Assembly: GCA_010405405.1 (NCBI GenBank)
Contig: MU004239.1
Coordinates: 918,713-982,712, forward strand
Length of the DNA: 64,000 nucleotides
Direction: 5' to 3'
Origin: Microthyrium microscopicum
Lineage: Eukaryota; Ascomycota; Dothideomycetes; Microthyriales; Microthyriaceae
Under the pieces are notes generated by a model. That model had not been told where the DNA came from, did no database searches, and saw only the letters and a list, made by a program, of their open reading frames with translations. How positions within the stretch are numbered: position 1 is the stretch's first letter; each line of letters starts with the position of its first letter. Positions 17,124 to 20,172 of the stretch are shown here, piece after piece. A program made the position numbers and the translations under genes.

Positions 17124-19449
17124 ATGACGACTATTATTGATGGCAATGATGCCTCACAAGCAGCGATTCCTCCCCAGGATGTGAAACTTCTCGAACAAAA
17201 GGTCTATGAATCACAGACTCTTGAAGACGAGCCTCAAGGCACAAGACAGAAAGTCAAGAATCTCGGTCATAGTGCAAAGAGAACCACAAAAAAGATCCTC
17301 CACATCGACAACACTGTTGAGCAGATTGGCCACGATCAGCATCCTGTGTCCAAGGAAATCGATGCCAATGCAGGATTTAACCCCTCACAAACGCTGGATG
17401 TCGTAAGATACCCCCGTGAAAAATCCCATTTCCTGACGGCATCCAGCTTCTCGAGGGACAAAAGAAGTGAGCCGTTTCGACGACTACTCCCATCAATTGC
17501 GATGGCTGCCATAACACTTCTTACAGAGCGGCTACTTCAATTACCATCGTATCTGATAATCGGATGTCAAATCTACGACGTTGATGGGACTTGAAGTAAT
17601 CACTCTTTAAGACGTGCTATGGCAGCCATCGCAATCGATGGGAGTAGGTGTTGAAACGGCTCACTTATTTTGTCCACGAAGAACCAACGAAACCATAAGT
17701 ACCGTGCTTCTTATCGCACTCATTGACTACCATAAGATGCGTTTCTTATTGGATGCTATTGGGCCTTACGACTGCGATGGGAATTACGATACTCCATGGT
17801 TTGATTGTCTTTTCAGAACTTGCTAGCTTTGATCGTAATCTCACACTGACCCATCCCAGGAAGCCGGTACACTGAAAAAGCTCAGCGACAAGATTCCCAA
17901 ACCACACAGTGTCCACGAGCTTGGCCACATTATGCGCCATCCCATAGATGCCGCTCAAAAGCAAGCTGCACAGACGCTAGACGCTTCAGAGAACCCTCAT
18001 CTTTCGCGTGAGGATAATGACAACCTAATCGATACACATCAGCAGTTGAAAGAACTCGAACAAGTAGATCTTGTGGATTCCACGACTGAGCAGCGGATCT
18101 CGGAGCTACATAAGGATCTGAACAACATGGAAGAGGAACGGGAACAGAAACGAGTGGCTTGGCTGTCAAGTCGCTACGTCTCGGGCGCTCGCGCACTTCG
18201 AGCTGATCAATACAGGTTTCCACTGCTATCGACATGTCGATGGGTAGATGAAAGTGGAGAGCCACAGGGTGTAAAGTGGTCGCAGTAGTTCAATCAGCTT
18301 CAGACTTTTCTGCATGCGGTTTGGAGTAATCAACCAACGCGCTCGCAGACTGAGTTGGTGAAGCAGGGCGAGACGAAGAAAGAGGAAGATCCGCCACATT
18401 TCGATCAAGAAGTATTGATGCAGGAAGGCGAGCGCCTAGTGATTACTTCGAGTCCGATACAGAGCTGGGCATCCGATTTGCTCAAGCTCCGGGATTGGCA
18501 GAACCCGACAATGACTGGACTCTGGCTTGCGACATGGCTGGGAATGTGGTATATCAATGCAGTATTCACGTTTGTATACCTCTATGCGGCTTTCCGGGTG
18601 CTCCAGACAAGGACACCATTTGATCAGCGAGAATCTTTACAAGAGATAACTCAACGAGCGGACGCTGATGATGAAACAAGTAATACCCTTGGTGAACTGG
18701 TAACCAGACATGGCAGCTCGGATTGGTTGGAACCAGTGCTTGATACCATAGGACCTACCGCCCAGCCGATGCTTCGAAGTGCAGCTGACTGGATGGAGAT
18801 CTTGGTCAACTACCCCGAAGCAAAAACCAACCGAGCACTAGGCAGTATTCTGGCGATTCTCGGAGTAGGCCTATTGGTGGCAAACTTTGTAAGCACGGAG
18901 TCATGTCTGAGGGCGACCGAATTGCTGTTAATTCTTGGATTCTTCCTCGACAAGCCCCTCGCTAGACGGTATCCAAATTATCGCAGCGTGCTGGTACCAA
19001 TGCATTGGATCTTATGGGACGTGCCTACAAACACCGAGACGGGCTTCAGATATCTGAGACAGCGGGCGCAAGAAATGCAGAAGAATGGCTTCCGAGATCA
19101 ATCAGAGCCCACACGACGGGCACTGATCGAGCCCAGCAGTATATCGATACCAGACTTGATGGCAGCCAAGTGCAAGTGGAACAAAACCGACGGCAGCATC
19201 GTGCTTACTGCTAATGAGATCTACTTCATGCGCAGCAAACCCCAGCAAGAGATGTGGAGGAGACGTTACGAGGACATTGTTCAAATGTCAAAGGGCGACG
19301 GGCGAACATCATTGTTCAAGCAAAATGTGCACTTCCTAGAAATTGAGTTCAAAGGCGCCGATGTTGTCAAGTTGGAGCCTCTGAAAAAGAACGATGAGGT
19401 TTTCAACATTATTTTTGCCTTTTCTAACTTGCAATGGCGTCAGGCATAG
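17124..19449 (+). pseudogene. DUF3292-family membrane protein gene with an in-frame TAG
   Basis: Exon 1 is 17124-17402 and exon 2 is 17860-19449; the first intron (17403-17859) has an unusual 457 nt. The N-terminal half is hydrophilic with coiled-coil-like segments (HQQLKELEQ, RISELHKDLNNMEEERE). It is followed by AWLSSRYVSGARAL, a hydrophobic span (GLWLATWLGMWYINAVFTFV), a second membrane hairpin near ALGSILAILGVGLLVANFVS, and a GRAM-like C-terminus ending FAFSNLQWRQA. This matches fungal DUF3292 proteins; their role is unknown, with a membrane or lipid-linked role suggested by the GRAM-like part. A TAG at 18286-18288 interrupts an otherwise continuous frame at the point where relatives have an aromatic-rich segment. 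It could be a nonsense mutation (TGG to TAG would suffice), a sequencing error, or readthrough. No intron can remove it with normal signals. Confidence 0.65.
17454..17671. repeat. Inverted repeat (two 70-nt arms) inside DUF3292 intron 1
   Basis: The arm 17454-17523 is matched by the reverse complement of 17609-17680, with about 90% identity over the best 63 positions (17461-17523 against 17609-17671). Both carry the core TACTCCCATC then GCGATGGCTGCCAT. The spacer is 85 nt. A long stem-loop could form in the pre-mRNA or DNA. A related arrangement occurs downstream of the gene at 19452-19662. Confidence 0.85.
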
Positions 19450-20172
19450 GGCAACGGCATAGCAAAACAAATGGCATACTCCCATCAACTCTGATGGCGC
19501 CCAGACGCTACGGTCTGTTATCAAGTGCTTTATTTGCCATAAAGGGCGTTCGCATTGGGCATGTTTATCAGTTACGATGGGGATTAAAGCACCTTTTGGT
19601 TAGCAGCGCTGGTGGTAGCCATTAGAGCTGATGGAGTACGCCTTAATTTTGCCATGCCGTTAATAGGGGTACGAAAACAGGTTGCGTGGGCATTTCTGAA
19701 AGTTGCGGATAATTCCATAAATCGTATCCTTTACCATCGTTCACAGCGAGTGAAGGCAATAGCGATGAAGGCATATAATTACGACCATAAACACACTGTA
19801 ATGTTAGTTCAAGCTGATAGAAAAGACGCCGGGTCTGGCCTTTGCTCTACAAATGCTGGTAAGATAACAACCCCCCAAAGCAGCGTATTTCCCATCGCAT
19901 TCGAAGGCTACCATAAGATGTGTTTCTCAATCGAGTGCTATGAATGCCATTGGATGCGATGGGTGATTGACATGTTATCGCGAAGAGACCAAATGGTCTT
20001 TTTAGCCACATCCTTTGACTATATTTGCTTTAACAGAAAGTAACACACCTCCCATCGCACTTGAAGGCTACTATAGAACGCGATGGCTGTTTTAGGATTT
20101 CCCCACGAAGAGACCAAATGGTCTTTTCAGAAGTATAAGCTCCGATCATAATCTGATACTAACAAATTCCAG
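19450..20172. repeat. Hairpin-rich insertion downstream of DUF3292, related to its first intron
   Basis: It contains inverted arms 19452-19503 and 19608-19662 sharing the core TACTCCCATCA and GATGGC with the intron-1 arms. A second imperfect palindrome lies at 19891-19963 (CCCATCGCAT at one end, ATGCGATGGG at the other) and a partial copy at 20051-20087. The segment around CTACCATAAGATG inside the palindrome also matches 17730-17750 of intron 1. The motif cgaagagaccaaatggtct occurs twice (from 19981 and from 20106). The block ends with TACTAAC then ATTCCAG at 20172, a textbook intron 3' end that aligns with the 3' end of intron 1 (both have TCTTTTCAGAA followed by GATCRTAATCT). Confidence 0.7.

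Follow-up and report, generated by a model that had tools for sequence, protein, structure and literature searches.

The window, the whole 64-kb stretch of DNA that we analyzed, comes from the dothideomycete Microthyrium microscopicum (Dothideomycetes), whose genome comprises 36.9 Mb in 20 contigs. It contains a gene whose own protein, P0001, is entered in the database as a hypothetical protein of this species. A Pfam scan of the gene product gave nothing above cut-off, and the DUF3292 label used here is that of the original prediction. Two blocks, namely, the first intron of this gene and the sequence following its stop codon, each combine a miniature inverted-repeat element (MITE) with what we read as a copy of an introner-like element (ILE). 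The features of the locus are as follows.

17124-17402, plus strand: exon 1 of the DUF3292-type gene, placed from P0001
17403-17859, plus strand: ILE-1, intron 1 of the DUF3292-type gene, with ends common to other ILE copies and missing from P0001
17403-17448, plus strand: 5' part of ILE-1, with donor GTAAGATACCCCCGTG and the 5' 35-mer pattern of the family
17449-17682, no strand assigned: MITE A copy, a 234-nt near-palindrome nested in ILE-1, from the genome search
17707-17781, plus strand: hairpin core of ILE-1 (CTTCTTATCGCACTCATTGACTACCATAAGATGCG...GACTGCGATGGG), the MITE-interior-related part, from reading of the sequence and the family core
17846-17850, plus strand: branch-point-like CTGAC, 5' of the acceptor AG at 17858-17859, in the CTRAC-type column of the 33-copy alignment A2
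17860-19449, plus strand: remainder of the DUF3292-type gene to its stop codon TAG at 19447-19449, with an in-frame TAG at 18286-18288
19452-19662, no strand assigned: MITE B copy with the target duplication (TSD) ATAGGG at 19446-19451 and 19663-19668, copy ends read directly
19859-20172, plus strand: ILE-2, a two-module introner-like element 3' of the stop codon, with donor GTAAGATAAC and acceptor TTCCAG
19874-20004, plus strand: first core module of ILE-2, profile positions 50-180 (nhmmer E 1e-30)
20005-20172, plus strand: second module of ILE-2, profile positions 21-223, with the end CTAAC...CAG (nhmmer E 1.7e-31)

Positions 17403-17859 had been predicted to form a 457-nt intron, and P0001 omits exactly these positions, giving the junction LDV|EAGT. 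The three homologues that cover the site, P0002, P0003, and P0004, read LDVEAGT, LEVEAGT, and LDVEAST, respectively, all uninterrupted, in agreement with the predicted intron (P0005 ends short of the place). Without the nested MITE A, the length of ILE-1 falls from 457 to 223 nt. The extent of ILE-2 was set at 19859-20172 because it has its own donor at 19859. This element joins no evident coding frame and is possibly an intron of the 3' UTR; the MITE B copy lies on its 5' side, and the left TSD of that copy overlaps the stop codon. Within the gene, the in-frame TAG at 18286-18288 (SQ*FNQL) stands where homologues have W or L (SQWVDQF, SQWARQF, and SQLFDQL). The NCBI model bypasses it by splicing out about 105 nt near 18244-18348, and a nonsense change is possible.

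The two blocks had been described as sharing one architecture, in which inverted arms of 50 to 70 nt around a spacer of 85 to 105 nt are followed by a palindromic segment and an acceptor-like end. The motifs described are present. TACTCCCATCNNNNNNGATGGC occurs four times at ≤3 mismatches, compared to 0.39 expected, and none of 100 shuffles reached four, while GGCTACCATAAGATG by itself is unremarkable (four matches, a number reached by 8 of 100 shuffles). TCTTTTCAGAA lies at 17808-17818 and 20122-20132 and is followed by GATCRTAATCT and, as predicted, by an AG, at 17859 and 20172. The inverted arms exist as well, but the lengths given for them were too short and their separation too wide, since the arms of intron 1 (17456-17548 and 17583-17675) measure 93 nt each, are 86% complementary, and leave a gap of 34 nt.

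When intron 1 was used as a genome query, only its middle (query 44-295, corresponding to MITE A) was matched among the hits listed, self aside; for the second block, it was only query 5-228, a near-palindrome of about 212 nt that differs from A. There were at least 85 matches to MITE A, on both strands and self included (best 40 of 61 candidates scored), and at least 109 to MITE B (best 40 of 181 candidates scored). TSDs of at least 4 nt were found at 14 of 19 distinct copies of MITE A (15 of 20 rows, L014 and L019 being one place; L010, L028, and L029, with unplaced ends, were excluded) compared to 25 of 369 mixed-flank controls, and at 24 of 28 copies of MITE B (L035 and L059 excluded) compared to 50 of 524. 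These duplications are mostly 5 to 6 nt long, end ambiguity allowed for; at the window copy of MITE A (17449-17682), an exact one was looked for and none was found. Both families thus consist of short elements with inverted terminal repeats, TSDs, and many mostly non-coding copies. Given the copies in the genome and their TSDs, the long arms are therefore MITEs, and we rejected them as a component of the introner, as they belong to two families with target duplications of their own. What remains of the shared architecture is the rest of each block, the ILE. As to other copies, a MITE A at L016 (approximately 1494-1727) lies between direct repeats of at least 14 nt rather than the usual ~5 nt, and at L049 (1379-1810) a MITE B with the TSD AGCGC is nested in an ILE, just as MITE A is nested in ILE-1. 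A known Rfam RNA was also rejected, with no match in the 64-kb window at the gathering threshold.

The remainder of intron 1 (query 17683-17880) matched three other loci, and that of the second block gave at least 36 candidates, 12 of 55 nonself matches stopping exactly at the acceptor base. Searches of the genome at ≤3 mismatches gave 13 matches for the 5' 35-mer, 81 for the core 27-mer, and 15 for the 3' 29-mer, while each reversed control gave 0. The union of the search listings, clustered within 450 nt, comprises at least 93 distinct places on many contigs; 47 of these come from the DNA and 5'-end searches, while the others, mostly unread, were picked up solely by the core or 3' pattern. 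The original prediction would have been refuted by just the two window copies in the genome together with a similar orthologous intron in distant relatives, and the genome has many more copies than two. The density of ILEs in the surroundings of MITEs, 6 in 161 kb, would extrapolate to roughly a thousand genome-wide, a figure with a wide error from a biased sample. A profile of 37 full ILE copies, window copies excluded, found two ILEs in the 64-kb window, namely, intron 1 and the second block, in addition to weaker matches there and on the MITE arms (best E in the reversed window, 0.083).

Family members have their own donor (GTAAGATTTCCCCGTG...), a hairpin core, a branch point, and an acceptor. 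The unit is about 220 nt long (145 to 457 nt among the copies read), and an intact one is a GT-AG unit with a conserved donor end of ~45 nt, a foldback core, and a conserved 3' end of ~80 nt that holds the GACCAAATGGTC mini-hairpin, the branch point, and the acceptor. Copy after copy, conserved sequence runs from the donor GT (GC in one) to the acceptor AG. Similarity thus extends over whole introns, in many copies and in unrelated genes, as is expected of introners. The mobile noncoding element with its own acceptor that had been postulated is in this respect supported, with copies at many unrelated loci, although it brings its own donor too and does not include the arms. Among 12 partial or odd hits that we read, none was seen to be a clean core standing by itself between TSDs, and those that could be judged were by appearance degraded ILEs or B-type MITEs. 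On these sequence grounds, we consider that the two window elements are copies of a family of spliceosomal introner-like elements in M. microscopicum, with a probability of about 0.92.

We monitored reading frames across the insertion sites of 46 copies at 40 loci for which both ends were available (45 GT and 1 GC donors), ends being shifted by ≤6 nt to the closest GT or AG; one hit was excluded because its ends were not usable. After excision of the ILE in silico, the median number of open codons around the junction was 150.5, compared to 71 on the antisense strand (46 copies). Frames of at least 60 codons were found in 39/46 sense and 31/46 antisense cases, 7/46 sense frames being shorter, but this threshold is weak because the antisense strand also reaches it so often. 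At 150 codons or more, the counts were 24/46 for sense, 2/46 for antisense, and 26/46 for the better strand, while in a control with MITEs (18 A and 28 B) and the same 300-nt flanks, only 1/46 reached 150 codons on the better strand.

Pfam searches of ten joined proteins identified a domain crossing the junction in six: a kinase domain (L021), Helicase_C (L072), Pyr_redox_2 (L087), AA_permease (L097), adh_short (L098), and FHA (L102). In L067, the domain stops before the junction, and L095, L094, and L070 are without a family. The joined protein of L075 aligned with a homologue across the junction (YFWM|AHDGAL and YFIMAHDGAL). At L049, the NCBI model P0006 begins 3' of the first ILE of the locus and removes the MITE-bearing ILE via other splice sites, with 23 more residues gone. 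Taken together, the frames, the Pfam domains, and the exact P0001 model indicate that ILEs probably act as spliceosomal introns, while the differing model at L049 counts against this.

We compared the ILE consensus to both MITE families. Against MITE B, it scored 38 over 68 colinear columns, including ATCGAGTGCT in the loop, while the maxima were 27 in 1,000 dinucleotide shuffles and 26 in 1,000 palindrome-keeping shuffles; against MITE A, it scored 34, the shuffle maxima being 31 and 31. When the ILE was split in three, the core (60-142) alone matched the MITE interiors, with Gumbel p values (2,000 simple shuffles each) of 6e-6 (A) and 5e-7 (B) on the plus strand and 5e-6 and 1e-5 on the minus strand, and the outer parts matched neither A nor B (p 0.55-0.64 for the 5' part and 0.16-0.89 for the 3' part). 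Two MITEs were also matched by the ILE profile, one a diverged B-type element at L046 (E 4e-8), the other an element of family A at L028 (E 4e-6). The elements at L046 and L066 aligned with both MITE B and the ILE core (no shuffle control), and MITEs A and B aligned mutually through their interiors.

This resemblance could mean that ILEs are themselves nonautonomous DNA transposons, sharing a transposase with MITEs A and B and having splice sites in modified ends. The matches of the L046 and L028 MITEs to the ILE profile and of L066 to the core point in this direction, and DNA transposition is the mechanism proposed for introners of algae and other organisms (PMC9860276). However, the likeness is confined to the interior, ILEs occupy coding frames while MITEs hardly do, and end repeats of at least 4 nt were found in 0 of 46 ILEs (54 of 2,000 mixed-flank controls), unlike in the two MITE families. 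The check for target duplications that the original prediction called for thus turned out positive for the MITEs and negative for the ILEs. We therefore regard a transposon nature of the ILEs as unlikely. When the conserved ILE ends were read by eye, no terminal inverted repeats were noticed.

Alternatively, the likeness between core and MITEs could reflect convergence of short palindromes (CCCATC...GATGGG) rather than shared descent. Both are hairpins, palindromes inflate chance similarity, and the margin for MITE A is small in both shuffle types, but the MITE B match, with its colinearity and its shared loop, lies well above anything seen in the palindrome-keeping shuffles, and we hold convergence to be rather improbable. 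Given homology, the ILE core probably descends from a MITE that was captured in an intron. A more tentative proposal, to which we give about one chance in three, is that an A/B-group MITE settled in an intron, that the foldback core of this MITE made the whole intron mobile, and that the intron then founded dozens to hundreds of others that lack TSDs.

It could also be argued that ordinary old introns were repeatedly hit by a third MITE family, the shared ends being MITE termini with chance splice signals. MITEs do enter ILE introns, and two such later insertions into finished ILEs were seen (A in ILE-1 and B in L049). Nevertheless, the conservation from donor to acceptor recurs across the copies, and it is excision of exactly this unit that keeps long frames open, which makes such a history very improbable. 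Finally, tandem duplication of intron 1 inside the host gene, offered earlier as the simpler alternative and suggested by two copies in one gene neighborhood, can be dismissed given the number of distinct places on many contigs and the fact that the ILE-1 3' part or second-block query matches other loci, the other window copy being absent among the matches listed.

Returning to a family of spliceosomal introners, the spliceosome would excise the ILE precisely, and the host gene would therefore tolerate the insertion. RNA copies of the spliced intron might then insert seamlessly at G|G proto-splice sites, either by reverse splicing or by RNA-templated repair, and the hairpin core might protect or present the RNA. 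Such a route, to which we give about even odds, would fit the data because placement is seamless, both splice sites are internal, and copies abut at acceptors, and RNA routes have been proposed for fungal introners (PMC9860276, PMC12403724). The base before the ILE is G in 40/46 copies and the base after it is G in 36/46, as would also be expected of ordinary exon junctions. The MITE-like core would be the remnant of a MITE in the founder intron and might stabilize the excised RNA. In the window, MITE A entered ILE-1 later, and MITE B landed at the stop codon, 5' of ILE-2.

With regard to folding, the mean MFE z score relative to shuffles was -2.27 for 41 ILEs (5 copies over 260 nt were left out) and -0.17 for 38 downstream controls, and z fell below -2 in 21/41 ILEs compared to 2/38 controls. 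RNAalifold predicted zero pairs on the 33-copy alignment A2 and hence no consensus structure. The original ILE work is said to have described ascomycete ILEs with a stable predicted fold.

The origin of new spliceosomal introns is a long-standing question, and an introner family that shares its core with MITEs of the same genome makes intron origin testable. MITE-like introners have reportedly been found in the algae Micromonas and Aureococcus. They and the Microthyrium ILE have in common a relation to miniature inverted-repeat elements, but the algal ones have TSDs and terminal inverted repeats while no TSD was seen here, and introners with TSDs often borrow a splice site from the target whereas the Microthyrium ILE carries both (PMC9860276). 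Among fungi, ILEs are known from the dothideomycetes Fulvia fulva, Dothistroma septosporum, and Zymoseptoria tritici, likewise as many similar spliceosomal introns in unrelated genes, and degenerate families exist (PMC4457414). By description, the Microthyrium elements differ from these in belonging to another fungal order, in their MITE-like core, and in their two-module and abutting copies.

The introner families of ascomycetes are reported to have neither terminal inverted repeats nor TSDs and have in this respect been the outlier (Gozashti et al. 2022, PMC9860276). Those of Alternaria alternata and other ascomycetes are described there as inserting directly, and the Microthyrium ILE is likewise free of TSDs, but its core is MITE-like, while the sections of that study on ascomycete introners report no transposon feature for them. 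Like the Microthyrium ILEs, the sequence-similar stwintrons of Xylariales are ascomycete introns that multiply, contain inverted repeats, and show a compound arrangement (PMC12403724), although stwintrons are nested and split a donor while the members of a Microthyrium pair meet at the acceptor (in L103, L092, and L104) or share a G (in L082). In the papers searched, supplements excepted, we found no mention of the Microthyrium family or its MITE-like core, and the family may be listed in the supplements, where Gozashti et al. give their genomes; judging from these papers, a MITE-related core would be new among ascomycete introners, introners in dothideomycetes being known. If true, capture of a MITE would tie fungal introners, held to be free of transposon signatures, to a resident DNA-transposon lineage in the same genome.

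In the amino acid permease gene at L097, the ILE site falls on codon 89 of the joined piece, while three paralogues with 39 to 54% identity are uninterrupted, with stop-free open frames of 305 to 469 codons. A fourth paralogue (L112) is broken near the L097 site, where 181 bases hold a 145-nt ILE, and in a hand alignment the two ILE positions lie ~11 nt apart. This paralogue comparison fits separate, parallel intron gains, for which L097 and L112 are candidates; other ILEs have been described as showing parallel gains (PMC4457414). When 41 copies were compared in pairs, identity had a median of 64% and was 82.6% for the best pair, a value so low that no recent activity is seen. The family thus looks old, and it may be inactive.

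Some ILEs abut without an exon between them, acceptor to donor in L103, L092, and L104 and with one shared G in L082; L103, L092, and L082 are on the minus strand, and the arrangement has a likeness to twin introns. That these pairs are recent tandem duplications was considered and rejected, since the four pair identities (0.757-0.808) lie inside the range of 200 random ILE pairs (5 to 95% range, 0.705-0.833; median, 0.778, by a cheap-gap measure whose values should not be set beside the 64% median). As the partners are no closer to each other than random ILEs are, insertion at an existing acceptor is indicated rather than recent duplication, and the abutting pairs hint at a preferred insertion target.

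Two core modules are present in L066, L077, L072, and ILE-2. In ILE-2, L066, and L077, a TCTTTT-type stretch precedes the break of module 1 at about position 180, and module 2 starts from about 20 to 25, which suggests one old compound form that spread; L105 has apparently the same two-module join.
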